Source of the DNA: Tribonema minus
Lineage: Eukaryota; Sar; Xanthophyceae; Tribonematales; Tribonemataceae
Direction: 5' to 3'
Length of the DNA stretch: 64,000 nt
Assembly: GCA_017506865.1 (NCBI GenBank)
Contig: JAFCMP010000002.1
Span: 1,116,001-1,180,000 of the forward strand
In this document: positions 6,709-61,225 of the stretch, piece after piece
How the letters are laid out: every line of letters starts with the position of its first letter
How positions within the stretch are numbered: position 1 is the first letter of the stretch
Notes under the pieces: generated by a model
What the model was told of the DNA's origin: nothing
Seen by the model: only the letters and a program-made list of their open reading frames with translations
Databases searched by the model: none
Program-made: the position numbers and the translations under genes

Positions 6709-6741
6709 GCCGCCGGTGCGGCGCTCCCCTCATCCACCGTA

Positions 6742-9700: not shown

Positions 9701-10908
9701 TGCTCCTGCCCACGGTCTGGTACCAGGACTGGCGCCAGGACGACGGCGCATGGCGGGCGCTGCGCGATCTGCTGCAACGGGCAGGCGGAGCTGCGGGGCC
9801 GGGCATGCGGACTCGCGCCGGCGCGCGCCGCGCTGCTGCGCCAGCGGTGGCGCGCGAGCCAGGCTCTGCCCAGGCCCCGCCGGCCGCCGTGCTGCCGCGG
9901 CGTCAAGCGGCGCTATCACGGGTGCTAGACGCAGCGCTCGCCGCCACGCAGCTGCGTCGGCTTGAAGCAGCAAATGCGTTGGAAGCAGTCGCGGCGTGGC
10001 GCAGCGGCGCCTCTAAGGGGGCCATGGGTTTCTTGGCGCAATTGCCGAGCACTGACCCAGCGGAGACCATGTCCCCGCCGGAATTCCGCGAGACGCTGCG
10101 GCGCCACCTGGGCGTGGAGCGCCCCGCCCCCGCTGCGGCGCGGTGCCCCAAGTGCCATAGACCAGTGGACTCGGGTGCCCACCTGCGCCGCTGCACACAA
10201 GGGCTTAACGTCACGCGACACAACTTGCTCGCAGACGCGCTCTTTCAGCTGCTCAAGCAGGTGGCCCACCTCCGCGGTCTCGACCGGGACACCCTTGCCC
10301 CCTTCCGCCGCTACGCGGCGCGCCACGGGTTCAACAAGTTCATGGACATCGTCTTTGGCAGCAACCAGGTCTGCCTTCCAGTCCCTAAAGTGCAGCCGAG
10401 CGCCGACGCGGTAGCAGCAGGCCGGTGCACTAAACTGCGCGGCGGCTTTGAAGTAGCTTGTTGCATAGACGTCACCATACGTGACAGCTCATGCCCCTCC
10501 CGCCTCCGTCAGGCTCAGGGGGGCGCGCGCGATGTGCAGCGCGTGCTTGAATCGGCTTCGCAGGAAAAGATAGACACATACGTAGTCTCAGGGGCCCTGG
10601 ACCCCACTACACACACCCTATTTTCCGCAGCCTTTGACCACTTCGGCGCTATGTCACGCGACACCCAAGCGCTGCTACACGCACTCGCCGAGCAGAGCTC
10701 GCAGGGCAGCTACAATCTCGCGCAGCGCGTTGCCTTCTGGCGCCGCCGCACCTCCCTCGCGCTACAGCGCGCGCTCACACGTGTCGTGATCGACAACTGG
10801 AACGCAGTCATTGCCCCTGATGGCGACGTCAGCGCTTACCGCCGCATCGCACTGTTGCAAGTGCCGCGGCCCTCGCCGGCCAGCGCCGAACCGCCGGCTC
10901 CTCCGTAG
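6742..10908 (+). CDS. LINE ORF2: reverse transcriptase with zinc knuckle and RLE-like domain
   Basis: 1388 residues from ATGATGTCT. Near the N-terminus, a CPLYDTGC...HQRREH pattern looks like a C2H2 finger. The RT palm is clear: IDGSNAFN near residue 590 (motif A), QQGVQQGDPLGP near 648 (motif B) and YLDDLT near 683 (motif C catalytic Asp pair). CPKCHRPVDSGAHLRRC at about 1135-1151 is a CCHC knuckle of the kind preceding the restriction-like endonuclease of R2-type elements. KFMDIVF near 1198 and CCIDVTIRD near 1239 would supply the acidic residues of that nuclease. In R2-like elements the enzyme nicks target DNA and primes reverse transcription there. The frame is unbroken and ends TAG. The subfamily is not assigned. 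Confidence 0.9.
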   Translation: MMSDSTSGGAAPAAIAAAAAAAAAAAAGIDPAQPEAVQAPAQPATAAIYPRCPLYDTGCLFRVPVPKPRLRRNGEANTLTAQTSASLALARRIATTLADHQRREHPNVPADFLARMQAVDDECLTLHRAGAGTYYAVEPELLLCACASCGEPGCVRTKLHQRDHLYKSRGAAATQRPHGPRVAPLPPILPLSTASGGARGPGARAAAAVAAAGPTWRSALPLWTLAPLSPARAALDDLSFDYVLQQQLVVGRRIRLEHRSDFTAALTATLAGLREAQTAVAQAHGVEAAAQASATAGAWCKLLHLLPCLLLVPDGSLPRAHRFAAFVAGDLDLLTRTALAFCRRGAARACTRRARSMTEAAAAVRERAAATARQPGGVGRAARLLAEGADTSAPRDSATLHKLQAKHPAGDASAKLDAAASRARSLVAAAALAAPAPLNCASFTADGLREAILAANPGSAAGPSGLRNSHLQQCVRHTAHTSGRTVDWLLELLAWLGTAVYSTPAALPAPFWRLHAAARLSAVGEKARPIACGDTIRRLFARTFCTDTRDRVSALLEPIGQFGVGARGGAERVALMAQLTHECGGVLLAIDGSNAFNALSRSAVLTAVAEHLPGLYGYVEHIYGPGRAPWLQFGLDGHADAAIILSQQGVQQGDPLGPLLFALALRGTMVAARAKFPQLALPGYLDDLTIMTPSCDAPVLDHVGRAFCFIQQALSELNIQVNVTKCAAVVPASGGARERAAAVFAAANVPVPVCDDGITLMGVPVGTEGFVRAQVAATLRAPGTDRLVAELVQMEDVQAAFSILRLAVPARAGHVSRNTAPSLTHEELRRFDAITLAAVAALAQEPSAGLTPPAHQRAPAAGDDCRGPPAVSAAAAPPSLWAAAVAWVRGADWGGEAPVTLPAHQQVRVHLRLGSGGFGVLGAAPRACAAFAARSLECMGPALAAFPVAARSRVLEHARYGFTFTQIATCLQQLRSGSDEAAAALALLLPTVWYQDWRQDDGAWRALRDLLQRAGGAAGPGMRTRAGARRAAAPAVAREPGSAQAPPAAVLPRRQAALSRVLDAALAATQLRRLEAANALEAVAAWRSGASKGAMGFLAQLPSTDPAETMSPPEFRETLRRHLGVERPAPAAARCPKCHRPVDSGAHLRRCTQGLNVTRHNLLADALFQLLKQVAHLRGLDRDTLAPFRRYAARHGFNKFMDIVFGSNQVCLPVPKVQPSADAVAAGRCTKLRGGFEVACCIDVTIRDSSCPSRLRQAQGGARDVQRVLESASQEKIDTYVVSGALDPTTHTLFSAAFDHFGAMSRDTQALLHALAEQSSQGSYNLAQRVAFWRRRTSLALQRALTRVVIDNWNAVIAPDGDVSAYRRIALLQVPRPSPASAEPPAPP

Positions 10909-40933: not shown

Positions 40934-41185
40934 AGTGATTGCGGCTTGCACGGCGAGGGCTGGACCCTGGGGATATTCGCTGACCGTTCCGCGACTGCGA
41001 GGGGAAACTAAGAAAATTCTGCAGAATAATCCAGCTCTTAGGGGGTTGGATAAATGCTCTCGCATTCGCTTGAGGGGGCGGACATCTGTTGAAAGAAGCA
41101 AGAACGTGACAGCTGTGTCATGTTTGCGTGCCATGTCTTGCAGGACAAAGACAAATGTTCACAAAGGTTTTCAAAAAATACCCAT

Positions 41186-42747
41186 GTACTTTTTATTAAT
41201 TCTCGCTCAGGGCGCGAAAAAGCCCAGATGATTGGCATCTAGCTGTAAGGAATCTACATGTTGTATGACAGTCTGAAAGTGTCGCAACGACAACCACTCA
41301 AACGCCGCCGCCGCCAAATGGCATCTCGGGGTCCTCCCCTACGTCCTCCTCCATGTGCCCCCCCCCCCTGGATTCTGCCATGTGTGTCATGACACGGCCA
41401 GAGTACGCCATGTGGAGCGCTGCCGACAGTGCCGAGCGTAAGCGCGCCAGGGCGATGCCCTTGAGAGCTTTAGTGCGCGCTCCTCCGGGCACTGACATCC
41501 TGCTGGCATACTCCGTCGCCACAGCCTCCAGCAGCTTCCGCCCCTGCTCCCCGATGTTGCCAAATGACCCTATTGCCAAAGTGGCAAGTTTGTAGCAATT
41601 CTGATCATAATGACCAGAATAGTGGGTAGTCTTGGCGGCCTCTTGGTCGCGGCAGCATCGCTCGGGGTCTGCTGCAGTCTTTGCCGCCCGCGACGCCACC
41701 TGTGCCTCGAAGCAGGTAACGTCCACCATGAGCGGTAGGTGGCGTGTCGGGTCGTCGTAGCCGGTCACCGGGAAGGCGTCGGCAGGCAGCACGATGTCCA
41801 TCCTGCGACTCCCCGGCGGCCCGGCGGACCCCAGAGACGGCGTGTAGTCCTCGTCCACCAGTCCCGTTTTGAGGTATTGCCGCAGGATGCGCTGCGTGGC
41901 CCTCTTGACGCTATTGTGGACGATGGTGTCGTGCGCCTTGACGCGTGGCGCTTGACACAGCCGTGCATGCAGGGTGCCGCCCGGCGACTTCCCGCACAGC
42001 TTGCAGCCTGCCGTCTGCTCCTCTACTCCGATGGCGCGTTTGACGGCCAGCTGCCAGGATAGGCCATCGAACGAAGCCGTTGTGGAGTACATGGGCTCGT
42101 TGAGGAATGCCATGCCGATCGAGTGCATGTGGCGCTGCGACCGGAATCGAGCAAGTGCTTGCGTGCGTTGCGTGCCCTGCGGCAGCTGTTGCAGGTCCGC
42201 CTCCACCTTATCTGCAAGCTCGGCAGCGACGGCATCTGCAAGCGCACTCTGATTGAGCGCCTCAGGCTACACTGCAACTGCAGAGCACTGGCGTCAAGTA
42301 CGCAAGCAGCATCCGCACCAGTGCCACCACCTGCTCTCGGCCGCAGCGGCGGCTGCTGCGTAGGTGGTTGCTGCTGCAGTGGCGTTAGCGCTGGTGGCAG
42401 CATATGTTCCAGCTTGTCACCTGTTGCTGCACGTAGAGATGTGGCAGCTGTGGCGATCGTCCGCATGAGGGGCAGGCGCGCCACCTCTGCTGCTGCTGCG
42501 CCTTGTAGCATTGCTGGTGTGGAGCGCGCAGCGCCTGCATTGACGGCTGCCGCTGCTGCGTGCGCTGGTGCTGCAGCTGCGCCGCCTGCCGTTCCTGCTG
42601 CTGCCAGTGGTGTTGCTGCTGCCGCAGGTGTTGGTGCAGCACCTGCCGCATTGGCCGCTGCCACCGCCATTGCCGCTGTCGCAGCCGGCACGGTTGCGGC
42701 GCCGCCTGCCGACGCTGCTCCTGTTGCAGGTGCTGCAGCAGCCCATG
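41186..42747 (-). pseudogene. LINE family A, 5'-truncated copy 1 (RLE domain)
   Basis: The minus-strand frame 42206-41298 encodes an RLE-LINE C-terminus: the knuckle CKLCGKSPGGTLHARLC, then RRMDIVLPADAF and PLMVDVTC, which fit the acidic core of a restriction-like endonuclease. Upstream, an Ala-rich stretch in another frame runs to about 42740, so a frame change lies near 42270, where the C-terminal frame meets a TAG. The 3' UTR continues to about 41186. All RT motifs are missing. It differs from the intact LINE at 4.8-10.9 kb and defines a second family. It ends 300 bp upstream of family gene 4. Confidence 0.8.
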
Positions 42748-42832
42748 TACGTATGGAGTTGTATTTATAAAGGCCCAAGGGAGGCCGGGTTGCCTATGCA
42801 ATCGAAAAGCTTGTGTCAACGCAGCAGCCCAT
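42748..42832 (-). mobile_element. LINE family B, 3' tail between the two family A copies
   Basis: TACGTATGGAGTTGTATTTA through GTCAACGCAGCAGCC matches the tails at 31961 and 44888 with a few substitutions. It is wedged exactly between copy 1 and copy 2 of family A. Confidence 0.75.
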
Positions 42833-42835
42833 GTA

Positions 42836-44333
42836 CTACTTTTTATAAATCTCGCTCAGGGCGGAAAAAAGCCCAGATGATGGTCCAACTTGATGCTGCT
42901 GTACGGGACCTGCATGTCGTGTGACTTCTGAAAGTGTCTCAACGACAACCACTCAAACGCCGCCGCCGCCAAATGGCATCTCGGGATCCTCCCCTACGTC
43001 CTCCTCCATGTGCCCCCCTGGATTCTGCCATGTGTGTCATGACACGGCCAGAGTACGCCATGTGGAGCGCTGCCGACAGTGCCGAGCGTAACCGCGCCAG
43101 GGCGATGCCCTTAAGAGCTTCAGGGCGCGCCCCTCCGGGCACTGACATCCTGCTGGCATACTCCGTCGCCACAGCCTCCAGCAGCTTCCGCCCCTGCTCC
43201 CCGATGCTGCCAAAAGACCCGATTGCCAAAGTGGCAAGTTTGTAGCAATTCTGGTCATAATGACCAGAGTAGTGGGATGTTTTGGCGGCCTCTTGGTCGC
43301 GGCACCAGCGCTCGGGGTCTGCTGCAGTCTTCGCCGCCCGCGACGCCACCTGTGCCTCGAAGCAGGTGACGTCCACCATGAGCGGTACTAGTAGGTGACG
43401 TGTCGGGTCGTCGTAGCCGGTCACCGGGAAGGCGTCGGCAGGCAGCACGATGTCCATCTTGCGACTCCCCGGCGGCCCGGCGGATCCCAGAGACGGCGTG
43501 TAGTCCTCGTCCACCAGTCGCGTTTTGAGGTATTGCCGCAGGATGCGCTGCGTGGCCCTCTTGACGCTATTGTGGACGATGGTGTCGTGCGCCTTGACGC
43601 GTGGCGCTTGACACAGCCATGCATGCAGGGTGCCGCCCGGCGACTTCCCGCACAGCTTGCAGCCTGCCGTCTGCTTCTCTACTCCGATGGTGCGTTTGAC
43701 GGCCAGCTGCCAGGATAGGCCATCGAACGAAGCCGTTGTGGAGTACATGGGCTCGTTGAGGAATGCCATGCCGATCGAGTGCATGTGGCGCTGCGACCGG
43801 AATCGAGCAAGTGCTTGCGTGCGTTGCGTGCCCTGCGGCAGCTGTTGCAGGTCCGCCTCCACTTTATCTGCAATCTCGGTAGCGACGGCATCTGCAAGCG
43901 CACTCTGATTGAGCGCCTCAGGCTACACTGCAACTGCAGAGCACTGACGTCAAGTACACCGTGAGCAGCGTCCGCACCGGTGCCACCATCTGCTGGTGGC
44001 CGCGGCGGCGGCTGCTGCATATGTGGCTGCTGCTGCTGCTGCATGAGCGCTGGTGGCAGCATATGTTCCAGCTTGTCGCCTGTTGCTGCACGCAGGGATA
44101 CGGCAGCTGTGGCGATCGTCCGCATGAGGGGCAGGCGCGCCACCTCTGCTGCTGCTGCGCCTTGTAGCATTGCTGGTGTGGAGCGCGCAGCGCCTGCATT
44201 GATGGCTGCCGCTGCTGCGCGCGCTGGAGCAGCTGCGGCGCCTGCCGTTGCTGCTGCTGGTGTCACTGCTGCCGCAGGTGCTGGTGCAGCGCCTGCCGCA
44301 TTGGCCGCTGCCACTGCCGTCGCCGTTATGTAC
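42836..44333 (-). pseudogene. LINE family A, 5'-truncated copy 2 (RLE domain)
   Basis: Same content as copy 1 at a constant offset of about 1,656 bp: frame 43862-42939 with CKLCGKSPGGTLHAWLC, RKMDIVLPADAF and PLMVDVTC. It has a 6-bp insertion (ACTAGT region near 43386) and scattered substitutions. The same frame change before the C-terminal frame is present, so the defect or recoding site predates separation of the copies. The 5' truncation point differs from copy 1. Confidence 0.8.
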
Positions 44334-46367: not shown

Positions 46368-46496
46368 CTACATGATGATCTCAATGTCCTGGCCCGTGGG
46401 CGACTTAACCCAGATGCGCTCGCGCCCCGCCGAGTAGTCCTTCTTGCCCGACATGAGCGTGTCGTGGAGGCGGCTCTTCTCGCGCTCCACGAGGCC
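46368..46496 (-). CDS. Terminal exon of the RGS-like gene
   Basis: 42 codons plus TAG, starting after CGTTGCAG with GLVEREKSRLHDTLMSGKKD and ending PTGQDIEIIM. The polypyrimidine-poor acceptor is supported by frame and by the copies of the same edge in the preceding intron (around 46610-46670 and 46735-46770). Confidence 0.65.
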   Translation of the reverse strand, partial: GLVEREKSRLHDTLMSGKKDYSAGRERIWVKSPTGQDIEIIM

Positions 46497-49400
46497 CTGC
46501 AACGGCGTGCAAGCAGCAGGCGCGCGCGCGTGGTTTGAGCGCTGACTTCAGGGCGATGGGCAGCGTAGTGATGACGAGGGTATTTTTGGCTCTGTTTTTG
46601 GGTTGTCCTTCTTGCCAGACACGAGCGTGTTGTGGAGGCGGCTCTTGTCGCGCTCCACGAGGCCCTGTGGAGGCAGACGCGCGTGCGTAGACTTGCAAGT
46701 TCAACTTGAGAATTTTGTGTACGTATGCAAGGCTCTGCTCGCGCTCCGCGAGGCCCTGCGGCGGCAGGCACGTGAGCGGAGGGCGCGGTTGAGCACTGAC
46801 TTCAGGGCGACGGGCAGAGTAGTCACGGTGAGGGTCTTCTTGCTCGCAGACTGTTCTGGTTTCACTGAGGTACAACTGGAGGGGCCCGCGTGCAAGCAGC
46901 AGGCGCGCGCTTCGGTTGCGAGTGGCGCGCGCGTGTACTTGGGTTGAGCGCTGACTTCAGGGCGACGCGCAAAGCACCTAGTCACAGCGAGCTTATTTAG
47001 GCTCTGCGGCCCTGCGGCGACAGGCACGCGAGCGGCGTGCGCGTGCGCGCGGTTTGAGCGCTGATTTCAAGGCGACGGGTAGCGTAGTCACGGCGAGGGT
47101 CTTCTTGCTCTGTTGTTGGTTTCACTGTGAAAGTAGGTTGAACACAAGGGGCTCTGAATGCATTATCTGCTGCAGTGCGGCAACGTTGCGGTGCAGATGC
47201 ATGAATTTCTTTTCGTTCGGCGGTGGCCCGTCACAATGCTGACTTCAAGTGGGTACTTCACTTCTGACCCATGCCAACAATCTTTCACCAGTCGCTGGGC
47301 ATGAGGATGTGTGCATTAAGTCAACGACTGCACAATGTGCCGCCCAATCTGCGGCTAGCGCACGCCATGGGTATCCACAAGCAGTGCACAACACTTTGCT
47401 GGCCAAGCACTTGTTGCACAGACCGCAAAGATGTGATCAGTAAATACCACCACCATCACCTCTGAGTTGCCATGGGCTAGGGTTGAGCTTACGTCTATTG
47501 CTGCCGCCCCTTCTGCCCACCCATTCTGACGGTGCAAACAAAGTACTTAGTGTTAGGGTTACGTTCAGGTCAGCTACTGCCCTCGACAGCGGTTCAGCGC
47601 AATGCGGCCTGCCATGCCACTGCCATCACAGGCCACACGGTAAGCCCTGGAATAACTTCAACATTGCACCAACCTCAACAATGTGTGCCGCCTCCTGCGA
47701 GTCCTGCGTCGTCTTGCCGCCGAGAAACATCTGTAACCGCCGCTCGTGGAGGGCAACGTAGCGCGGGTAGGCATCTCGTTGGATGAGCTGCGACGCACAA
47801 GCAGCAAGTCCAAGTCTGGGTCAGGGTTTGAGAGCTGCTGGAGTCTGACGTGGAGTCTGAGAGGTGCTTCATCGTTCAGGTAGGACTGGGTCAAAATTAG
47901 ACATCTTCATTGGGCGACTGTGGAGCATCATGGTGGACGGCAACTCTTGTCTGATGAGGCACGCAGCGCCGTTGGCGTCCGAGTCAGAGTCAGAGTCAAC
48001 GGGACATGCACCACCACGTTCAAAGCGCCTCATCCTGTTGCCAGCCATGCTGGTGATTGGACGCGTGAAGGGATTTAGCGGCAGGCCGCTGCTATTTAAA
48101 GCCTGATTTGAGCCGTGCAGCTGCTCATCGGTAGCAATTGTGGCTACCAGTGTGACGCCAACCCTAACCCTAACCCTAACCCTAACCTTAACGCAGGTGC
48201 GCGCTACATCAAGACATGGAGTGCTTGAAGGTTCTTCGTTCTTCCATCATGCTCGCCCGCAACAATGCAGATGCTGTGGAGGCGGTCATAAATGAGGTCA
48301 TAAATGAGGACGACTGCTTGAAATAGGGGCAGGTGCGTCCCCCCGTTGAAGTCGAAAGTGTGTAACAGGGTACTCTCCATTGCCTCAAGGCGGATTACAT
48401 GGCAACAATTGCGATTTCAATGCAAGCCCTGCTGCAACGCGCACCGCACCTGAAAGACGGACGCCTGAGCCAGCTCAAACAGGGTCCGGTCGAAAGGATC
48501 GGGCTGCGGCGGCGGCGGTGGCGGCAGCGCAGTCGCTGCGGGGCTACCCGGCGGGCTCCCTGCATGAGGCGTGCCTATTTGCGGGGAGCTGGGGGGATGT
48601 ACCCCTGTGCCCGCAGCAAGACATGGCCCTCGCTGTTGACAAGCTGATGTTGAAGTACTTGTTGAAGTAGGAGCGTCCACGGCCTCCACGGCGTCCAGGT
48701 CCGTCTCGGCAACGCCGATGATGCCTGCATCGGTGTCAGTGCGGTATAGCAGCGGTGCGCTTGTTCAGGGAATGGTCACGGTGTTAAACTTTGAAGCAGG
48801 GGCTTGGCATGGAACGCTGACTCCACGCTTGCGCGCGTCTCGTGCTTAGGGTTAGGGTTAGGCCTACTTATCTGCTGCGGTGCCGCCATACTCAGCGAGC
48901 TGTCAGTGTGAGCGGTGTTCAAGTGGAGCATCGAGCACTCGCATCGAAAGTGCGAAACTGAGACATTGTCGCAAGGCACATTAGAAGGAGCCTGAGTTTG
49001 CCATATCATCTGGAAGACCTTCAAGAGGCGCCATCGCCCACTTCAACGTTCATACCTTAAGCACTGTGCACTTCTTAACGATCGCTCCAACAGGCTTTCA
49101 ACTGCTTCCAGTGCACAACCCTCAGAGGCACGGGCAACTCACATGCGCTGGCGCCCCCCTCCCCCTCCTCCTCCACCTCCCTCTCCCCCTCCCCCTCATC
49201 GCACAGCGCGTCCTCCGCGACCGTTTCTAGCGCGCCGCTGCCCGCGCGAACGCCAGTCTCCCTCTCCGCCCCTCGCGACACCAATGCGCCGCCGGCGTGC
49301 GGCAGCGCTATTTCGAGCGCGCCCGCGCCTCGGCCGGCCGCATGTGCGGATGCGGAAGATGCCGCAGGGTGGTGCACCAGGGCCGCGGGGGTGGCAGCGG

Positions 49401-52119
49401 CAGCGCAGTGCGCAGCGGCGGCGGCGCTGCTGCTGCTGCAGCAGTGCGCAGCGTCACCGCTGCTGCAGTGCTCAGCGGTACTGCTGCTGCAGCGCTCAGC
49501 ATCAGCGTTGCTGCCGCAGTGCTCAGCAGTAGTGCTGTTGCAGCGCTCAGTGTCACTGCTGCCACAGTGCTCAGCAGCAGTGCTGCTGCAGCGCTCCACG
49601 TCAGCATTGCAGCGCTCAGGCTCATCGCCGCAGTGCTCAGCGGTACTGCTGCTGCAGCGCTCCGCATCACGCGTGTCGGAGCGATGTTGCTCTTCTGTTT
49701 TTTGTTCACATTCGGGTACGGTAGCGGCTGCTGACGGTGCGTCCGCGCGCGCGTCAGACGGTTCCGGAGACCGTTCTGCGCTGGAAACGGAATTTGCCGC
49801 AGAGGGTTCCAGGGTCCGTTCTTCCTCGTCGTCGTCACAGCTGTCGCGGCGGTCGTTTTCGTCGTCTTGCTCGTCAACTGTCGCCATTTCCGTATTGTGG
49901 ATCCTCTGCGCGTGCCGTGGAGGGGGGGGGGGGGATGCGTTTGTTGGGGTTAAGCACTGTTGCATGGCAGCTGTCAACAGGTGTACGCAGCTTCAGGGTC
50001 GACGCGTCAACATCAACATATGAGCTGAGAGGATGACTTCATGTGTGTGCCACAGCATGCAAAAACCTGACGCTGCTTCCCTGATGCCGAGGCACTTGCA
50101 GCCCTGACCCTAACCCTACATTGGAGACAGCACGGTCCCCCTGTGCATTTGACAACTGGCCATGGGCTCAGAACGCACCAGCGATGATGTGCCTAAAGCA
50201 GTGGCATGCAGCTCTCACCCTATCCCTACATCCGACTCTACCCCCCACCCCCAACCACAAGCCACTTTCCTAGTGCCGCTGCAAGTGTGCCATGGCTACG
50301 GCGCGTTTCATGGTCTGCCTTGCTTTTACAGCGCCGCTTCGCGCATCGCCGTGCACGGCGCACCGCCGCGCGCATGTGCTGTTGCTTAGAGTTTGCCTAA
50401 CCCTAACCCTAACCCTAACCCTAACCCTAAGTTTTGCGCATGACACGCTGCCGCACTCTGGCAACTATTGCGCAACCAGATGTGTGGCGCATGGGGCTGG
50501 ACGCACGTGCACCAGCAGCAGCAGCAGCACTCAGAACAGCATCAGCGCTCAGGGCAGGACGCGAGGAGCATCAGTGCCCAGCAAAGCCTCAGCAATCAGC
50601 GCGCACGCTGACCCTGGACCGTGCGGACGATGCACTTGTCGCTGAATAGAAAACGCAACATTGATTGATGTTGGACCACGCTTATTGGGCAGCTCCTGGC
50701 ATCACAATACACATCATTAAATCATGGTAGAGTACAGGAGCAGACTCAAAACCATCCGTACAATTGCTTATAAAGTGAATTGAATGCTCCAATTCTTCAA
50801 GAAAATATGAGAAGCTATATACTCGCCCTGCGGCTTCAAGCGCCGCATCAGACCAATCAAGTTCAGACCACTCAGGTTCAGCTAAACTATCGACATAATC
50901 ATTCATCCCTAATGTCACGGCACTTGCCTCAGGGCTACCAAACCTCTCTGTGACGGCGTGACTGCTGCTGCTGCTGCCGCCGCCGCCGCTGCTTGTGGGC
51001 GACTTATTGGCCAAACGCCGCGCTTCCGCGTCCGCTGCCTGCGCCACCTGCACATGCGGCAGCACACGGGTGTCAGAAGACCGTGTCAGTGCTCATATTC
51101 AGAGAAAGTGTGTCCACCTGGACAAGTCAGCGCTCAGGTTTCAGGAGACTGTGTCAGCAGTGCTCAAAGATGTCCGCCTGCACACGTCAACGCTCAGGGT
51201 TTCAGGAGACTGCGTCAGTGCTCAGTGCGTAATGTCCACACCGTGCTTGGCGGGCCTGGCGCCATTTCCGCATGTACTGCCTGCGCCTCTTATGAACAGA
51301 GACGAATCCTGCTGAAGCAGGCCATGGCTGCTTCTGCTTGCGTATGGCGCTTGCGCATACAGACAAGCCTCCCGAATGCAAACTAGCAATACTGGGCTCA
51401 TGAAGTGAGGTTTGATTCAGCAGCGCTCAGAAGTAGCCCACAGCCTCTTGACAAATGCCATCGTACGCGCCGTGCTCCCGAGGCTGATCCTGCATGAGTG
51501 GTCCATCACACGAGCTTCAAGAAAACCTAATGCATGACAAGAGATCATCGCTGCTTGCAGCAACTGAGTTGACAGGGTGACAAGGACCTCGACGCTGCTG
51601 ATGACGACCATGTGCAAGCCTGCATTCAGGGTTCGAGCCGGCATTAGGAATGGGACTAGACCTCTACATTGCGTGACCGCACCTCGCTTTGCGTCAGATC
51701 TGTTTGCACTCTTGAACACTTTTTATACTTCTAAATTATAAAGATATACTTCGCAGTACTTGAAGTACTTGCGAGTATACAATTGTGCCGCGGACATCGC
51801 TCCAAGACCGGCCGCGCGCACAGCGCTGCTGACATTGATGCGTGCTGCCAAGCCACGGGAAGTCTGCCAAAAAATTCTGAAGTTCCTGATGTGCTCATCC
51901 CCTTTCTCATCTCGTGTAGCTCAAATAAATTGTGTGTAAACATGACCATCAGATTGAAGTATGCATTTGTACCGCGGACATGGCATCCAGCATTGCACCG
52001 CGCACGGCGCTGCTGACATTGACCTCGCGCGCGCTGCCGAGCCACAGCAAGTCGGCAAGAATGTGTTTTCTTAATTCTCAAACACCTCAATTATCGCTTA
52101 CATTTCAAACGAAGTGTGT

Positions 52120-52185
<66 letters not shown>

Positions 52186-55100
52186 ATGCGTACGTATGGC
52201 TCTTGGTCAGGTATATATTCATACCGCGGATATGGTCTCCAGCGTTACCGCGCGCACGGCGCTGCTGACGTGAACCTCGCGTGCGCTGCCGGGCCGCAGC
52301 AAGTCTGCAATGCGCTCTCTTCCCTTCCAAACGACTTGGATGTCGCTTACACTTCACGTATGGGGCATGTGTGTGCACATGTGTGGGTGTAGGTATGTAC
52401 GGTTCTTTCTAAAGCCATTTGATATACGTACCGCAGACATGGCCTCCAGCGTTGCCGCGCGCACGGCGCTGCTGACGTTGACCTCGCGCGCGCTGCCAGG
52501 CCGCAGGAATTCGGCGTAGATGCGCGCAGCATCGTTCAGGTACGCGCTGCAGCTGGCGAATGGCCGTGTCTTGAAGCGCTCCACCTCCAACCAGAACTCG
52601 ACGCCCTCGTCCAAGAACTGGCGGTTACAGACAGTTACGGGCAGTTACAAATAGCATGGTGAGAGGCGCCGGCAGTGCAATGGAGGAGGTCCCCATTCAG
52701 GCATTGGCAGTTGCGGCAGTTGTGGGCAGTTGAGGTTCGCGCTGCACCTGGCGAATGACCGCATCTTGAAGCGCTCCACCTCCAGCCAGAACTCCACGCC
52801 CTCGTCCAAGAACTGGCGGTTACGGACAGTTACGGGCAGTAGCAAACAGCATGCTGAGTGCGCGCCGACAATGCAGCAGGTTCTCATCACCAAACTGAAA
52901 GTTACAGACCAGTCGTGGGCAGTTACGAGCGGTGTCGGATGGTGAGCGGCGTTGATTGTGCAACAGGGAAACCCAAACACGGGCAGCTGCAGCTGTTGTG
53001 AGCAGTTCGGGCAGATTTGATTAAAGAGGAAGTCTTCATTCAAGCATCGGCAGTTGCGGCAGTTGTAGGCAGTTGCAAGCGGCAGGGTGCAGGTCAGATG
53101 GTGTGGCACCGGCGGTGAGACAGAGGAGGATGGCACGTGTTTGTCTACTGTTCGCCTGTGCACGTACCAAAGTAAGTATGGTCACGGAGCGGTGTATGTA
53201 TGTACGTGTGCGCTTGCTTGTTGGCAGTGGTGCTTGGCTTTGGCTTTGTAGCTTAGGCCTCACTTCAGATGGCTGTGCGCAAAGGCTGGCAATACTCAAC
53301 TTCAATGTTGAAACTGCTCCACAATCCAGCTTGAACTCAACGCCCATGTTTAAGAGCTGATGAGCACTGCAGCTAAAACTTCGACTGTTTGCAGCCGCTC
53401 AACATGAGCGCTTTGTCGCATTCTTTTGCGGGGCTGCATGAAGTACACAGAGTCTGCTGAGCACTGGTCCGCACGTGCTTGACCGTAACCTCCATTACTT
53501 GTTATATTTTCACATTAAATTACAAGAGTCGGCATGTTATCCGCCACCTGCTGTCTCCCTAACCCCAATTCTCAGTACTTGCGAGATTGCATGCGGCACA
53601 AGATTCTGAGCACTGGCCCCACCTTACCCCGGCTCTAAACCCTACCTTCAACCCAGATTACAAGCAATGAGCACTGTCAGCCCCACCTGCTCCTTGGTGA
53701 AGTGCGTGAATGACAGGAGAGTGAAAGAAGGTAAATAACTTGTAAGATTGCACACTGAGATAGAAGTCTGAGCACTGTCCCCACCTGCTCCTTGGCAAAG
53801 TGCATGAAGGACGCGAGGGTGAATGAGAGTGAATAACTTGTAAGATTACATACTGAACGATATGAGAGCCTGAGCACTGTGACCCCCACCTGCTCCTTGG
53901 CGAAGTGCATGAAGGACGCCAGGGTGAAGGGCTCCCCAGCCTTATTGCACAGGATCCTCTCCAGCGGTGGAACGATGCCCTGCACAGGCAGACACGGGTG
54001 CATGACATTTGTGACTTAGACCCAGACTCAGAGGTTTGCTCTGCACCGTATGCCGGTGAAGTGCCTTCGGGCAGAGTTGAAGTGCCACAGAGTGCTGCTG
54101 CGCGTTCTAGTGCTTGATGCATTCATCAGTTGTAAGGCTTGATACATTTATCAGCGAAGTCCACCGGCCATGATGCCCTACCACACAGCAGCAGTGCAGC
54201 AGCATCAAGTGCAAGCTCCGTAGGGTTAGGTGAGGGTTGCAAGCAGGGCAAGGGGCAGGACACACCGTCGCAGCAAGCTTGTGCAGCATCACACACACTG
54301 CGACACAGTGTCACACTCGTATCCGGAGCCACATTGCAGGCGCATCTCCCCGCCATTGCCCCTGAGCACTGCTGCCTTGCGGTCAGCAACTGCCCATGCG
54401 TCAACACTGTCTCTGCTGCATGCCTGCCTTCCCACCAGAGACCCTGACCCTAACCCTAGCCCCTCTGGCTTGAAGGACGCTGACTCACCTGCACCAACCC
54501 ATTGAGTCATTGTGCTCCGAGTCGGCAAGCTTCCGCGCTTTCTCATTCCGCTCCTCAACGAAGCTACTTACCAAGCACTACCTTCACACACCAAAGACTC
54601 TGACTTCTGACTCACCAGCACTGACAAGGCGAGTTTTCGCGCTTTCTCGTCCTTTTCCTCGTCGGAGCCAACTTCACATACCGACGACCAGCTTCCACGC
54701 CTGCTCTTTGCGCGCTTTGTCGGAGCCACCACGCACCCAACTTTACACACCAGAGACTCTGACTCACTGACTCACCAGCACCGACTCGGCGAGTTTCCGC
54801 GCTTTCTCGTCCTGCTCCTCGTCGGAGCCGCCATGCACCACCTTCACACACCAGAGACTCTGACTCACTGACTCACCAGCACCGACTCAGCGAGTTTCCG
54901 CGCTTTCTCGTCCTGCTCCTCGTCGGAGTCACTCTGCAGGCCCAGCTCGCCTCTGCTGGCCGTCGTCTTTGCGCGCTGCCGCGCTGCCGTCGGTGACCCC
55001 AGCCCCGATAACATGTCCGAAACGGGCGATAGGACCTGGTGCACAAAGACAGCACATGAAGGTTCAGCTAGAATCAGGGCAAGGTTTGAAAATCAGGTCT

Positions 55101-58046
55101 GGTTTGAGCGCTGACGCGCCGCCGTTGGCGACCCCAGTCCCGACAGCATGTCTGAAACGAGCGGCAGCACCTGCCGCAGAAAAGGTGGCATGTTCAAGGG
55201 GTTTGGGTGTATGCTGGGCCTTCAGGCTAGGGTCAGGGGATGTTGCTGAGCGCTGCCATCAGTGACACCAGCTCCCGACAGCATGTCCGAAACGGGCGAC
55301 AGGACCTGACGAACATAAGCAGCGCATTATAATCTGAACAGGGTTGGTTAGGGTTAGACGTTTAGGATCAGGTCTGGGTTTGAGCGCTGACGCACTGCCT
55401 CAGCCCCAAGAGCAGGTGTCTGACACGAGCAACAGCATCTGGTGCACAGTCTTGTGGCGCTTGCACACAGAGTTATAGGTTTCAGCATACATACACTCAT
55501 CAAGTCTGTGGATGAAACACACGCCATCTCGTGCAGCAAAGCGCAGCATCCACAAATTGTAGGAAGTGCTTTGCACGTTCACGCTGTCGTAAGCAGAGCT
55601 GTGCTTAGGAGCTGAAGCAGCACACGATGCACCAGAAGCCGTGCAAAGAACATTGAGAGGGAGAACATGTCAGCACAGCTCATTTTCGACATTTGCTGTC
55701 CTGCGGCAAGTATCCAATCACTTCATCAAGTCATATTGCCAGGGAGAATATTAAGGTCACAGCATCTATGAGTCACTATCACATAAGTGTAACATCGACA
55801 GGATCATGGGGTTGTGGGTTGCGCAGTCAGCGCTTGCCACGGACATTGCCGGGCGTTTACACAAGTGAGCCTGATGTCGCTGTGCACGTGCCAGGCGGTG
55901 CACCTACGCGGTGCGTTATTTCACCTGCCCTAGAGCTCACTACTGCTAGCAGCGGCTCGTATCTCTGCCTGTTTTCAGGTGTCAGAACGCGGCATGGCCA
56001 CTGCAGATCGGCGTCCGTCCGTGTTGTAGACAATCGCATGCCGCCTTGCCTTGCGTTACTTGTGCTCACAGCTTGCACTGTGCATTTGAAACAGTGAGAC
56101 GAAGTAGTGTGCTGATCATGCCGAGCCTGAAAGTGTTTCCAGAGTATCGAATAAATAACGAATGTGCCTTGACGAATGTGCCTTGCTCCTCACACCTCGA
56201 CCGCTGCTTGCAGGTGCCTATTTACCACATGGCAGGAGGACCAAGAGGAAGAGCAGCAGCGGCAAGGTGGACATCCCCGCTATCGAGGCACGCCTCACGG
56301 AGCTGCTTGATGATGGGCCATTGCCTAAAATCGTGGTCTTCGACATAGACTATACCTTGTGGCCGCTTTGGATAGGTACGCTCTTGGAAAGAGGACGCAT
56401 TCCTGCGGTCAAAGATGACCGGATGTGGCAGGATGTCAGATGTTGGCCTTCAGGCTAGGGTTAGGGGATATATTGCTGAGCACTGCTGTCAGCGGCCCCG
56501 GCCCCGAAGGCATCTCTGCCACCGGCCATGGCACCTGGCGCATGAAGATAACGTATGTTACTGATTGGGGTCGGGGTTCGGCCTTCAGGCCAGGGTGATG
56601 GGATATACTGCTGAGCGCTGAGCATAACAATACGCGTTGCGGCAGCGCACCTCGCGCGGCGACCGCTGCTGCCGCGCCTGCGCGACGCCTGCATTCAACG
56701 CCTCCCTGGCACCACTGCGATATCAGCATGTATTAGTACTGAAAACAGCTTGAAATGAGCACACATGCACACGGCAGCACGTGCCGCCGCCGTCACCGCC
56801 GGCGCCGCTGCGCACCTCGCGCAGCGACCGCCGCTGCCGCGCCTGAGAAGTTACATACCATCATGGTGAAAACCTGTTGTAAATGAGCAATGCAGACACA
56901 TTTGTAAATCTACATGCACATATCCGCACGCGCCGTCGCAGCGCACCTTGCACAGCGATAGACGCTGCCGCGCCTGCGTGACGCTCGCGTTGAGCGCCTC
57001 TCTCGCTGGGGTATTAGTACAAGTAGTACTACATACAGCTGTAAAGTAAGCGCGGCAGCATGTGCCGCCGCCGCAGCCTTAGGGTTAGGGAGCCGCTGCG
57101 CACCTCGCGCAGCGACCGCCGCTGCCGCGCCTGAGCATCAGGTGACATACCATCAGGATGATAACTTCTTGTAACTGACCAGTACATCCATACACATACA
57201 CATATCCGTACTACCTGCATCGTCAATCCACTGTCCTCTTCTGGGTCCGTGAATACCCACGGCCTGCAGACTGTCTTTGGCGGGCAGCTCACAATCAAGG
57301 CGAGGGTGACACGCCAAGCAGGGTAATTGTCATCATACTTCACGAGGTGCAGCAGCAGCTGTACCGCATATTTGTACACATATCTGCACGTGTTGCCGCA
57401 GCGCACCTCGCGCAGCGACCGCCGCTGCCGCGCTTGCACGACGGTCGCGCTCAGTGCCTCTTTGGCGCTGCCGAGACACCGTATTAGTATTCAGAACATC
57501 TGAGCAGTAGGCACACATGCACACCGCCGCTGCCACGCCTGCGCGACGCTCGCGCTCAGCGCCTTTCTGGTACCACTGCGATATCAGTATGTATTGGTAC
57601 TACTACCACCAATAGCGCCTCTCTGGCACCACTGCGACATCGGTATGTATCAGTGCAAAAAGCAGCTTCAAACAAGCACACATGCACGCGTCAGCACAAG
57701 GCGCCACCGCCGCCGCAGCGCACCTCACGCAGCGACCGCCGCTGCCGCGCCTGCGCGACGCTGGCGTTGAGCGCCTCCGGCTCCATCGAGAAGCGCCGCA
57801 GCCGCCCGGGGCTCTCGCTCTGCGCGCGCAGCACCTGCGCGTCGCTGCGCCGCCGCGGCCGTGCCGCCACCGCCGCTGCCGCCGCTGCCACCGCCGCCAC
57901 CGCGCCGCCGCCGCCGCCGCCGCCGTGCCGCGAACTGCCGCCGTGTCGAGAGCTGCCCGGGGAGGCGGGCCGCGATGCGCTGCCTTCGGAGCGTGGGCTG
58001 CCGCCGCATGCGGCTGCTGCCTCGAGGGCGTCGTGGCCGGCGTGCC
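46368..58046 (-). CDS. RGS-domain-like protein, minus-strand gene with at least eight exons
   Basis: Exons in transcript order: 58046-57724, 55035-54877, 53979-53890, 52617-52432, 51047-50823, 49905-about 49120, 47787-47674, 46496-46368. Six of the eight (all but the first and the 49.1-49.9 kb exon) are exact multiples of three with phase-0 ends. Joined, they read like an RGS box: ERILCNKAGEPFTLASFMHF, FLDEGVEFWLEVERFK, AARIYAEFLRPGSAREVN and, after a long Ser/Cys-rich insertion, LIQRDAYPRYVALHERRLQ. RGS proteins speed GTP hydrolysis by G-alpha subunits. The N-terminal exon is Gly/Ala/Arg-rich; the C-terminus is EIIM. Missing exons between 55 and 57.7 kb and the true start are unresolved. The introns are full of exon-edge copies. 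Confidence 0.7.
46540..47120 (-). repeat. Echo copies of the terminal exon edge and intron segment
   Basis: Four units begin TTGAGC(G/A)CTGA(C/T)TTCA.GGCGA (near 46538, 46789, 46945 and 47056). Several are followed or preceded by degraded copies of GGCCTCGTGGAGCGCGA..AG, the first bases of the terminal exon. They lie in the intron upstream of that exon. Confidence 0.7.
47674..47787 (-). CDS. RGS-like exon, C-terminal helices
   Basis: 38 codons, in frame at both ends: LIQRDAYPRYVALHERRLQM then FLGGKTTQDSQEAAHIVE. The DAYPRY segment corresponds to the D-S/F-Y/P-R-F signature at the end of RGS boxes. The donor GAG/GTTGGT is weak; a nearby alternative is possible. Confidence 0.6.
48159..48192 (+). 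repeat. Interstitial telomere-like tract (CCCTAA)
   Basis: Four perfect CCCTAA units plus a variant CCTTAA. An opposite-orientation short tract (GGGTTAGGGTTAGG) lies at about 48847-48860. Both fall in an intron of the RGS-like gene. Confidence 0.9.
49120..49905 (-). CDS. Large exon of the RGS-like gene with Cys/His/Ser repeat
   Basis: Starts after a perfect polypyrimidine run and GCGCAG with RIHNTEMATVDEQDDENDRR. An acidic and Ser-rich section is followed by about six imperfect repeats of ERCSSSTAEHCG (49440-49680), then an Ala/His-rich stretch, an acidic run and LRVVHWKQL-like residues near the end. The 3' boundary is uncertain: GTGAGT at 49142 is the stronger donor, while GTTGTG after 49120 keeps phase 0. 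Regularly spaced Cys and His could bind metal or be disordered. This exon falls inside the RGS box as an insertion. Confidence 0.55.
50396..50430 (+). repeat. Interstitial telomere-like tract (CCCTAA), longest in window
   Basis: Five perfect CCCTAA units plus a partial one, within the intron between the 50.8-51.0 kb and 49.1-49.9 kb exons. Confidence 0.95.
50823..51047 (-). CDS. Ser-rich exon of the RGS-like gene
   Basis: 75 codons with phase-0 ends (acceptor ATGTGCAG, donor CGA/GTATAT). It encodes VAQAADAEARRLANKSPTSS, a Gly/Ser run, then YVDSLAEPEWSELDWSDAAL-EAAGR. A degraded copy of its first bases (GGCGCAGGCAGTACATGCGG on minus) lies upstream near 51260. Confidence 0.6.
51060..51235. repeat. 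Short intronic tandem units with GTGTCAG.GCTCA and TTTCAGGAGACTG
   Basis: Three units of about 60 bp carry GTCAGTGCTCA or GTCAACGCTCAGG, then TTTCAGGAGACTG.GTCAG and GTCC.CCTG. They resemble the branch-site-like words found beside other echo copies of this gene. Confidence 0.6.
51785..52310 (-). repeat. Echo copies of the 3' edge of the RGS core exon
   Basis: Three copies (about 51785-51870, 51972-52060, 52222-52310) of the last ~75 bp of exon 52432-52617 plus its donor: plus-strand ACCGC.GACATGG.....GC followed by CGCGCACGGCGCTGCTGAC. They carry substitutions that break some frames. All lie downstream of the exon, in its own intron. Confidence 0.85.
52114..52184. repeat. (TG)n microsatellite
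   Basis: About 70 bp of TG dinucleotides with two TA interruptions, lying between two echo copies in the RGS-like gene intron. Confidence 0.95.
52432..52617 (-). CDS. RGS core exon
   Basis: 62 codons, phase 0 at both ends (acceptor CGCCAG, donor GCG/GTACGT). FLDEGVEFWLEVERFK matches the conserved E-N-x-x-FW-x-x-x-E-x-(F/Y)-(K/R) segment of RGS boxes. AARIYAEFLRPGSAREVNVS matches the A-x-x-I-(Y/F)-x-x-(F/Y)-(L/I)...-V-N segment. The conserved Asn of many RGS boxes is replaced by Val in GVEFW. Confidence 0.7.
52640..53350 (-). repeat. Echo copies of the 5' edge of the RGS core exon
   Basis: 52735-52812 repeats the acceptor and first ~75 bp of the core exon (CTCGTCCAAGAACTGGCGGT on plus), with FLDEGVEFWLEVERFK conserved. 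A more decayed copy is at about 53265-53350. Repeated GGCAGTT(G/A)CGG(C/G)CAGTT words fill the spacers. Confidence 0.8.
53685..53822 (-). repeat. Echo copies of the 3' edge of exon 53890-53979
   Basis: Two copies (about 53685-53725 and 53782-53822) of the exon end plus donor: CCCCACCTGCTCCTTGG.(A/G)AAGTGC.TGAA.GAC on plus. The minus-strand residues TLASFMHFAKEQ are preserved in one of them. Confidence 0.85.
53890..53979 (-). CDS. RGS N-terminal helix exon
   Basis: 30 codons, phase 0 (acceptor TGTGCAG, donor CAG/GTGGGG). GIVPPLERILCNKAGEPFTL then ASFMHFAKEQ matches the L..LL.D..G...F..FL..E start of RGS boxes and joins directly to FLDEGVEFW in the next exon. Confidence 0.65.
54510..54840 (-). 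repeat. Echo copies of the 3' edge of exon 54877-55035
   Basis: Three copies (about 54515-54560, 54617-54670, 54777-54835) of the exon end plus donor: plus-strand CAGCAC.GAC..GGCGAGTTT then CGCGCTTTCTCGTCC, each followed by ACACACCAGAGACTCTGACT-like intron sequence. A decayed fourth lies near 54690-54740. Confidence 0.85.
54877..55035 (-). CDS. Charged linker exon of the RGS-like gene
   Basis: 53 codons, phase 0 (acceptor CACCAG, donor CTG/GTGAGT): VLSPVSDMLSGLGSPTAARQ followed by a basic stretch and the acidic DSDEEQDEKARKLAESVL. Probably helical. Both edges are copied repeatedly in the flanking introns. Confidence 0.65.
55100..55445 (-). repeat. Echo copies of the 5' edge of exon 54877-55035
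   Basis: Three copies (about 55125-55175, 55255-55310, 55395-55442) containing the acceptor and CTG.CGCC.GTTTC.GACATG (minus). Each is preceded on the plus strand by GGTTTGAGCGCTGACGC or GCTGAGCGCTGCC and by GGTTAGGGTT/GGCTAGGGTCAGG telomere-like words. Another decayed copy is at 56488-56540. Confidence 0.85.
56215..56376 (+). CDS. Exon of a magnesium-dependent phosphatase 1-like (MDP1, HAD) protein
   Basis: A plus-strand segment after GCTTGCAG encodes AYLPHGRRTKRKSSSGKVDI, then LTELLDDGPLPKIVVFDIDY and TLWPLWI, followed by GTACGC. The P-K-(L/I)-V-V-F-D-(L/I)-D-Y-T-L-W-P-(F/L)-W block is the N-terminal catalytic motif of MDP1, HAD-family phosphatases whose first Asp forms the phosphoaspartate. 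I found no downstream exons with the rest of the fold, so this is a gene fragment or a gene with distant exons. It lies antisense inside an intron of the RGS-like gene, directly followed by echo sequence at 56448. Confidence 0.7.
56460..57570 (-). repeat. Echo array of the 3' edge of the N-terminal exon
   Basis: At least six copies (about 56638-56705, 56808-56850, 56938-57000, 57098-57135, 57400-57470, 57515-57570) of plus-strand GCGCACCTCGCGCAGCGACC and GCCGCTGCCGCGCCTG, encoding on minus QARQRRSLRE plus the donor. Spacers share words such as CACTGCGATATCAGTATGTA and GTATTAGTACT. All are downstream of exon 57724-58046. A possible short true exon (PWVFTDPEEDSGLTMQ, about 57222-57270) lies within. 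Confidence 0.85.
57724..58046 (-). CDS. N-terminal low-complexity exon of the RGS-like gene
   Basis: 323 nt with acceptor GCCACCAG and donor GAG/GTGCGC. It encodes an Ala/Gly/Ser/Arg-rich stretch, then RRRSDAQVLRAQSESPGRLR and RFSMEPEALNASVAQARQRR-SLRE. The frame is chosen by homology with the echo copies and by its donor phase 0. Upstream exons were not identified. Confidence 0.5.
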
Positions 58047-58139
58047 CTGGTGGCAGCGCTCAGCGTTCAGGGGTAGGTAGGTAGGGTTAGGACTGGAGAC
58101 ACAGTTCACTCGTGGTATCGAGTCGCATTTACTACTGGT

Positions 58140-58495
58140 GCTGCCGCCGCATGCGGCTGCTGCCTCAAGGGCGTCGTGGCCGGCATGCCCTGGGGGCAGC
58201 ACTCAGTGTTCAGGGATAGGTAGGTAGGTTTAGGACCCCAGGGCAGCGCTCAGCATTCAAATTAGGTAGGTAATCCTTAAGACAGGCAATGCAGATTATT
58301 AGTGGTAGGCTGCCGCCGCATGTGACTGCCTTGAGGGCGCGTGGCCGGAACGCTGAGCGTCAAGGGAAGGTAAGTAGACACCGAGTGAGAGTTAGAGGTT
58401 GAAGATTTGGGGCGCTAGTAAATTACTGCTTCGTGGAAGGATCAGGCTGCAGGCGCACGCGGCCGCCTCCATGGCGTCATGACGGCGTGCCCTGT
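58140..58495 (-). repeat. Echo copies of the 5' edge of the N-terminal exon
   Basis: Copies near 58140-58200, 58310-58350 and 58440-58495 of GCCGCATGCGGCTGCTGCCT...GGGCGTCGTGGCCGGC (plus), each followed by GCAGC.CTCAG.GTTCAGGG-like sequence, the same string that precedes the true acceptor at 58046. GGTAGGTAGG runs separate them. Confidence 0.85.
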
Positions 58496-58499
58496 GTGA

Positions 58500-61225
58500 G
58501 CACGCTTAGCGTTCAGCACCGGTAGGCGGTGAATTACTTAGAGCTAGGATTTGAGGAAGCAGCTCAGGCGTGGTGCTGCGCGGCTCTTGGCGGCAGGGGG
58601 GGGGAGAGCGCCTGCGACGCTGTGGTGTGTAGGTATAGTGATTCATTCCACATTGTGCGTCATCAGTGCCTTCATGGCCGATGAGGTTTTGCATAGGCGG
58701 CACCCTTTTGGTTCTCTCGCTGTGAGGTCGTGGCCGCCACGAGCGTGCGGCGGGTGCCACATGGGGTGACCAGGAAGGGAGGACAGAGTTCAGTCTGACT
58801 CTGAGTCTGACATACCTGTGTCACACCTGACGCTCATCTGCCTCATGGGGCGCTGCCATGCGCGGCTGTTGAAAGGAACCCTGGCTGAGCACTGCTATAT
58901 CTGTCACGCGCGGCTGCAAGTTGTGGATTCCAACCACAACTACCATCAACCTGCCTGCTGCACAAGCGCCTCTGCATGGCATCGCATGGTGAATCGAGGC
59001 AACCCCACTGTGGGTGAACAAAAACCGACAACTGTGCTGAGGCGCAATTGTACGCTACATTGCAAGCATCATAGTGCCGTTGCCGTTTCCGGCCTGGTAT
59101 GACGGCATGACTGCTATGGCACCGGGTCCGTGCTATGCGCTATCTTGCGAATGAACATGTGATTTATGGTTCATGAGAGATGTGCTCGCAGCATTCATGC
59201 ATGCAGGGGATGTCATCGCCAGTGGGGTTGTGCTGAGGGCTATACCTGACTCAACTTCAGGCAAACCGCAACTGACGCATTGCCTGAGCGCCGTCTCTCT
59301 GACCACTTCTGTGAAGCTAAGTCTACAGCTGTGCTGCAGTCGCAGGCCTCATCACAATTTATTCTAGGCATGAACCAGGGGTGGCAACTGATACTAGCTG
59401 ACTACGTGGTCATGAAGCTTGTGTCTAGCAGCAGTGTGTCACCTTTCAAGAAAATGAATGTCTATATGGGTCGATGATCCAGACAGAACATCAGCCGATT
59501 GGCCTGGCGGTGCATTAGGTTGACTGACAGGGACAACGCACCCTAAGTGCTTTCTGTCAGCAGCAAGTGCCTGCGAAATGAAGTCTCTTCGGTATGCTGA
59601 ACGTAGCAGGTCATCGGCGCAAGGTCTCGTTCTCTAGCATACGCCCTCGGGCGTGCATGGACAGACTCCCAACAGAGTGAGGCCACAACGACGCCAACAA
59701 CGCTGAAACGAGCAGTGCTGCTCCACAACCTGGCCATGACTAAGGTGGGGCCCTATCAGGCATGTCGGCACGCAGCCACGTGCGGTATTCTAAGTGCTCA
59801 CCTGGCGACAGGGACAGCGACCTTATGATTCCTCGCACTCCCGTCATGCCTCTCTCGCCAGGTCCACGGCTTCCAGGTACGTGTAGATGTCAATGTTCCT
59901 AGTAACACAAGCCTGCGTCCGAGGCTATCCAGACACGCTCGCCCCCCAGCACCTCCATCCAATGTTACACTCAGCAGCCTAGCTCAACCTTGGTTGAGTG
60001 AAAGTGGCGGTTACAGGATGATGAAATTCAAGAATGAGAATTAGCCATGGTCATTCAAGATCAGCCAGGGCAGTCGACAACAAGCAATCACTTGAGTCCA
60101 GGGTGCGTTCCGCGCTTGCCATCTCGTCAAGCACCTGGAAGCATGGCTGTATACGTCATTGATGGTGCCTTGGACGGCAGTTTCACTGTGGCACACCGCT
60201 TGAGGGAGAGAAACCTACAGGATAGAAGAATATGTACTGTAAGAGTATGTGCAGTACAGACATGATACCGTTAGCAACTGGCTCCCAGGGCACACAGTGT
60301 GTGCGCATAAGTGCATCATATCCGATCCAACGGCAGCTACCACTATTGCTACTCCTATCACTTCCCACCACTACAGCACAACTGCCCTCCCCCAGCCGTG
60401 CGGAACTCAGCAGCCGGACTGCTACCAGTTACATGCCAGTGGCATGTGTGCAGACTGCTGAACGCTTCTGCCGTTGAAGTGAAGCTGCTGCCGGATTCTT
60501 TATGCTGCTGCATCATTTGCTCTAGAGGTGGCGAGGTCCGACAGAGTCACTGATGGCATCAACCCATGATTGATCTGCAGTGCCCTTGAAATGCGCGCTT
60601 GTATTGGTGGCCTAGCCATTGTCGACTCAACTATCCAGTAGCACAAATATATGAATGCAAATGATTGGATCTGCAGTGGAAACCAGCCTTGAGACCACTG
60701 TAGTTATATTGACGGTTGCAAAAGGCCCTGGTGATCAAGGAAGTTTGCCAAACTTTCAAAATGTTCAAAAGGTTGTAAACGTCTTGACGTCAATGAAACA
60801 TATGCTCAAATCCGCTGAATGACATCACCATTTGGGTTTTCTCCTCCAGCTACACGTGGAAGTGTTGACAATCAATTGGCTCGAAGTGCAGCGGTGCACC
60901 GGCACTGCATTGCACAAGGCAACAGCTGCCAGTGCAGCACATGTGCTGCAGGTCTGGCGCTAGCAGGTAGCGCCTTCTTATGATGCGTGCCCTGCTTAGC
61001 ATTTGACTCAATCTGCGTCAGTGGCTTGGGAGTCCCCTGAGGCCTATTTTCCACAAGACACACCTAGCAGCAACATATCATGCTTTGGAGCTTGGTATTT
61101 GGTAACATCCGTTGTGGAATGCGAACTTCGTTGAACCAACTGGACGATGATCTTGACAATGTGTGTGGCGACCCGACTCGGACACAGAGCCTCTAGACAC
61201 AATAAGTTAGGCTCATACCTTTTTG
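58500..61225. other. Region without a recognisable gene
   Basis: No chain of exons or domain motif was found. A plus-strand frame at about 59170-59470 (including GMNQGWQLILADYVVMKLVS) is mildly protein-like and could be an exon. The interval may hold the promoter and first exon of the RGS-like gene. Confidence 0.3.

Follow-up and report, generated by a model that had tools for sequence, protein, structure and literature searches.

The window, a stretch of 64 kb from Tribonema minus (G000:C2:1116001-1180000; the assembly has 158 Mb in 554 contigs), carries a gene on its minus strand, from about 58.5 to 46.4 kb, with exons that were modelled from translation and splice sites. The joined exon model matches the RGS domain of Pfam (PF00615) with 60.2 bits (E 3.3e-16). 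As the curated cut-off of 23.9 is exceeded by this model, the predicted gene product is an RGS domain protein. A search for homologues of this protein gave no hit at E <= 0.001 among 3388 candidates. The first exon, E1 (57724..58046), is based on an open frame and splice sites; its 3' edge with the donor is at 57724, and its 5' border, at about 58046, is uncertain. Next are E2 (54877..55035), E3 (53890..53979), in which the RGS domain starts, and E4 (52432..52617), which codes for the core of the domain; for E3 and E4, the Pfam match adds to translation and splice sites. The lengths of E2, E3 and E4 are divisible by three, and each exon has AG before and GT after it. E5 and E6 are partial models only. 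E7 (47674..47787) and the last exon, E8 (46368..46496), are again based on translation and splice sites.

A first-pass annotation had claimed that at least five exons of this gene have degenerate copies of their edges (termed echoes here), those of the 5' edge being restricted to the upstream intron and those of the 3' edge to the downstream intron. Each exon was searched against the whole window, which bore out both parts of the claim: copies, all on the minus strand, are associated with E1, E2, E3, E4 and E8, and 5'-edge copies are confined to the upstream intron, 3'-edge copies to the downstream side. The intron downstream of E1 contains six copies of its 3' end (56636..57570), in line with the six or more claimed for the 57724 edge; five of them include this edge and one (57564-57523) stops 11 nt short of it. 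On the upstream side, the 5' region of this exon is copied as well (58140..58574); E1 is a GC-rich low-complexity exon, for which this search is noisy. The three copies attributed to each edge of E2 were recovered. Its 5' edge recurs upstream at 55170-55103 (81%) and 55305-55250 (88%), and more distantly at 56534-56480 (69%, E 0.001), its 3' edge downstream at 54837-54776, 54716-54616 and 54568-54514 (92, 74 and 76%), with a period of about 101 (TRF). E3 has two 3'-edge copies downstream (53687..53823; 95 and 82%; period about 98 by TRF). For E4, one 5'-edge copy lies upstream (52812-52729; 90%), and the three copies reported for the 52432 edge were found downstream (52308-52225, 52056-51973 and 51867-51789; 87, 87 and 73%). 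E8 has two 5'-edge copies upstream (46664-46602 and 46755-46731; 92% each). The same search gave zero matches for E7 and nothing beyond low-complexity matches for E5 and E6. E2 and E4 have one weak far match each near 7 kb (E 0.009 and 0.004).

Some further features were recorded. On the plus strand, positions 4696-10905 of the window contain an open frame of 670 aa and, adjoining it, a second one of 1399 aa in which Pfam detects a reverse-transcriptase domain; this is probably a retroelement. When 88 of the 153 open frames outside 46-58 kb (at least 100 aa) were searched, there was no Pfam match at E <= 0.001, and Rfam gave no match at gathering score in the 64-kb window. The window is enriched in the motif GAGCGCTG/GAGCACTG and its complement; of the four forms, two clearly occur more often in introns than in upstream flanks. 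A 24-nt tandem repeat with this motif (49433-49670) lies inside a 305-codon open frame, perhaps an exon of the RGS gene. On another contig (L054; G000:C334 near 714136-714324), there is a nuclear Rubisco large subunit-like fragment with an in-frame stop, probably transferred plastid DNA. The fragment looks red-type, which would point to an alga whose plastid is of the red lineage.

The tests covered two gene families, the RGS gene and the kinesins. A Pfam kinesin search of the genome gave 132 exon-level matches, from which 20 stretches with several motor exons were taken, the selection being by exon number and not by echoes. For each motor-exon core, a local copy was defined as direct, within 2 kb and with E <= 1e-4. 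At least one direct local copy is present at 32 of the 76 cores; 5'-edge copies lie upstream of 20 cores and 3'-edge copies downstream of 15. The layout, which had been proposed for inspection at other loci, is found here as well: 38 copies of 5' edges are upstream and none downstream, 31 copies of 3' edges are downstream and none upstream, so that the one-sided rule holds for all 69 edge copies. The remaining matches are four inner copies, one whole copy, four inverted matches over the exon itself, eight far matches and four in other exons. No edge copies were found at one of the kinesin loci (L038). Among 19 further kinesin cores (14 places outside the 20 stretches), copies are present at only two, with four of four copies obeying the rule. 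Edge copies thus occur in many genes of the Tribonema minus genome, but unevenly.

The structure of the duplicated units was analyzed in 34 introns, five from the RGS gene and 29 from kinesins, the latter with borders set by a simple splice-site score that is low for a few. Where kinesin copies are present, they extend to the exon edge; the one exception begins 18 nt inside the exon, and we think that the modelled exon border is wrong in this case. In the kinesin and RGS introns, 54 of 57 edge alignments include 13-104 exonic nt and extend beyond the exon edge into intron sequence, and 53 span the splice junction. The copies are local, head-to-tail and not inverted (intron-only alignments: 90 direct, 1 inverted). 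Some units abut exactly, in keeping with tandem duplication (at the locus L034, -85..+34 and +36..+162), others are separated by a gap of tens of nt. An ungapped scan detected 126 offset-matched segments in introns and none in shuffled introns. Their spacing is commonest at 100-130 nt (per 10-nt bin), with a tail to several hundred, and 13 of the 126 are below 80 nt. A hard lower limit of unit size near 85 nt was considered and rejected as an artefact, as self-BLAST is insensitive to short periods (it found 0 of 15 periods of 40-80 nt at each size and identity tried in a power check, and 15 of 15 at 120). Both the RGS introns and the kinesin genes thus support repeated local tandem duplication across splice junctions, as originally proposed. 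The statement that this is not ordinary exon duplication is also upheld. A single one of the 74 nearby direct kinesin copies spans the whole core, and it lies 1.4 kb away. Whole-exon copies account for 1 of 70, whereas they are expected to make up about 9% of exon-touching events at these unit and exon sizes (p 0.008 when counted by copy and 0.13 by exon); the deficit fits removal by selection, the evidence being weak when taken by exon. Nine of the 32 duplication families do not involve any junction.

A few copies are 97-100% identical, as might be seen if they resulted from misassembly or collapsed alleles. However, the median identity is 87.5% (5th percentile 74%), a single edge can have up to five copies, and an identical rule is seen across many contigs. 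Because most copies are some 7-26% diverged, we regard assembly error as extremely unlikely. The first-pass annotation had named such an artefact, and copies lying away from their parent edges, as observations that would speak against it; as far as tested, the copies are near their parent edges and neither objection applies.

If the introns derived from introners or another kind of dispersed mobile element that carries internal repeats, sequences should recur between genes. In favour of this, introners are described as more frequent among aquatic organisms than among terrestrial ones (PMC9860276). Yet between-gene comparisons of the 34 introns gave three matches at E <= 1e-5, restricted to one intron pair and a telomere-like repeat. 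There is no sequence family common to many of these introns, and each unit matches its own exon. The introner origin is unsupported and very improbable.

The exon part of the copies is 84.7% identical to the parent (2408/2843), and the intron part 72.3% (4086/5654). Judged from these alignments, the divergence (15% vs 28%) appears close to that of one drifting partner vs two. The copies had been suggested to supply decoy or alternative splice sites. As a selected device, echo donors and acceptors would tune splicing, in line with the many exons that bear echoes. Of 53 echoes, 45 have kept the splice dinucleotide, which could also point to such a role but barely exceeds the roughly 38 estimated from 15% decay; the alignments favour retention and, because the copies are non-independent, the small surplus is not interpretable. 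The unit lengths modulo 3 (19/19/15) show no frame preference, 38 of 53 extensions to the echo site meet stops in every frame, decay is near the neutral rate, and some duplications contain no exon edge at all. This part of the earlier proposal is thus not supported. We consider a splicing device improbable; the echoes look like neutrally decaying debris, with a splicing function unsupported by their sequences.

It is likely, in our view, that the introns have accumulated many small tandem duplications of repair-based origin, and that those crossing a junction leave the inner exon-edge copy as intron. Such duplications, mostly spaced about 100-130 nt with a tail to several hundred, would build up in introns. 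Crossing of one junction would double either the exon edge with the intron head or the intron tail with the exon edge. When the donor is crossed, the second edge copy would come to lie downstream; when the acceptor is crossed, the first copy would lie upstream. This layout is what is observed, and the reading frame suggests that splicing retains the outer site. With the outer splice site staying in use, the inner exon-edge copy would become intron. The one-sided rule would then be a matter of geometry, because the copied unit crosses the junction and is tandem, and special or directed copying of edges is not needed for it. Where a unit lies entirely within an exon or covers it, the protein would be altered, and selection presumably removes the duplication. 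The echoes would drift about neutrally and sometimes re-duplicate into arrays (divergence and arrays are both seen), so that introns would lengthen; the gene models suggest longer introns and not additional ones. The likely source would be staggered breaks or nicks that are repaired by fill-in and end-joining. It may be more active in transcribed introns than in the flanking DNA, given that the excess in introns is observed.

A preference of the process for exon-intron borders, caused by splicing-coupled breaks or a DNA feature, is a variant in which introns grow from their ends. In simulations with units drawn from BLAST-derived spacings of 91-251 nt, uniform placement on average linked a fraction of 0.33-0.47 of the families to a junction and produced 10-13 echo sides, compared with the observed 0.72 (23/32) and 25 of 68 sides. 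The observed values exceed all 16 uniform replicates, and a mix with 40% junction-anchored events fits. The echo counts of other uniform runs were likewise below the observed one, with coverage not matched exactly. Junction anchoring would also help to account for the few duplications in the flanks. However, the RGS gene had been chosen for its echoes; without it, the kinesin values are less extreme (15/24 families, 18/58 sides) and within the range of a uniform model with rate variation. In addition, duplication coverage in introns does not change with distance from the junction, the share of intron-only alignments that touch a junction (0.244) matches the uniform runs, and there is no clear age gradient away from the exon (rho -0.09, p 0.44; the farther copy is less similar in 40 of 67 pairs). 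A junction preference of up to twofold is possible; junction-anchored duplication as the underlying process is rather doubtful.

Duplication covers 34% of the intron bases (12633/36954 in the 34 introns; 31% in kinesin introns alone), compared with 3.2% in size-matched control chunks from window positions 1-45 kb. The ungapped scan agrees, with 34.1 vs 3.5 per 10 kb in introns and control. In the kinesin loci, coverage is 5.3% upstream of the first motor exon, where unrecognised exons and introns may be included, 30% in the motor region and 17% in the downstream part. It is higher between motor exons than in the upstream flank in 18 of 20 loci (one tie, one reverse; Wilcoxon p=1e-4). Within the window, duplications cluster in the RGS gene. 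Outside it, islands lie around 5-6, 13-16 and 41-44 kb, and positions 61 and 63 kb have traces; the window scan found none at 48-51 kb, inside the gene. A direct repeat of 1.5 kb (41181-44325; 92.5% identity, spacing about 1.65 kb) contains two open frames, neither with a Pfam match. The intron excess may come from transcription-linked breaks; alternatively, intergenic DNA may be replaced faster and may be younger.

Short telomere-like repeats (TTAGGG, 8-mers) are likewise dense in introns. There are 54 segments in 37 kb of intron, distributed over 22 of the 34 introns, and 13 in 31.6 kb of upstream flanks; the window has 12 sites at 47552-58091 and none at 1-46 kb or 58.7-64 kb. That these repeats serve as filler at duplication borders was rejected (2.4% vs a null of 2.4%). 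In the 34 introns, G-strand repeats are nearer the intron 5' end than C-strand repeats (mean position 0.33 vs 0.57). The p value of this difference is 0.005 with segments as units, 0.058 with introns, 0.011 by label swap and 0.10 over all core gaps; a flip test, by design blind to strand asymmetry, gave p 0.88. This weak asymmetry could hint at a role of the repeats in RNA. It is tempting to extend the duplication process to a view of introns as hotspots of transcription- or splicing-coupled break repair, in which junction-biased tandem duplications and telomere-repeat insertions would accumulate, and hardly so in the flanks, with growth outward from the splice sites. We put this forward tentatively and would not bet on it.

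Parts of the process are known from other systems. In a potato gene, a tandem duplication across an intron-exon boundary created a new intron (PMC4974935), and a figure legend of that study mentions an intronic tandem duplication of 83 bp. There, too, the duplication crosses the boundary and the copy carries acceptor and exon edge; however, a single gene acquired a new intron, whereas in Tribonema minus many duplications apparently lengthen many introns and are spliced out. In the AGGT exon-duplication model of intron birth (Rogers 1989 and Hellsten 2011, as cited in PMC4974935), splice sites are likewise supplied by tandem duplication, but an exon segment is doubled and a new intron is born, while in Tribonema minus the border is doubled and becomes intron. 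Fill-in by CST-Pol alpha-primase at breaks makes small tandem duplications (PMC8355091), and these are similarly direct, local and tandem with short units; they were obtained in human and mouse cells as short (<100 bp) insertions at Cas9-induced breaks. Introners have also changed intron content genome-wide in protists (PMC9860276), but they have a sequence common to introns, which the 34 Tribonema minus introns lack. Searches of the open full-text literature, judged by titles and abstract openings, brought up no account of exon-edge copies across a genome or of introns enriched in telomere repeats. As far as these sources reach, the scale and the intron concentration of the edge copies are new, and the nearest junction-crossing precedent found is the one potato gene.

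Intron lengthening is an old question and is frequently attributed to transposons. Here, many duplications can be dated, and the conserved exon to which each is anchored displays the original letters; the rate at which introns grow, along with the size, position and decay of the units, is therefore measurable. The concentration in introns, together with the telomere-like repeats, would enable a test of transcription-linked break repair. For genome annotation, partial exons with intact splice sites may mislead gene predictors. In the genes examined, the edge copies are a readable record of intron growth.
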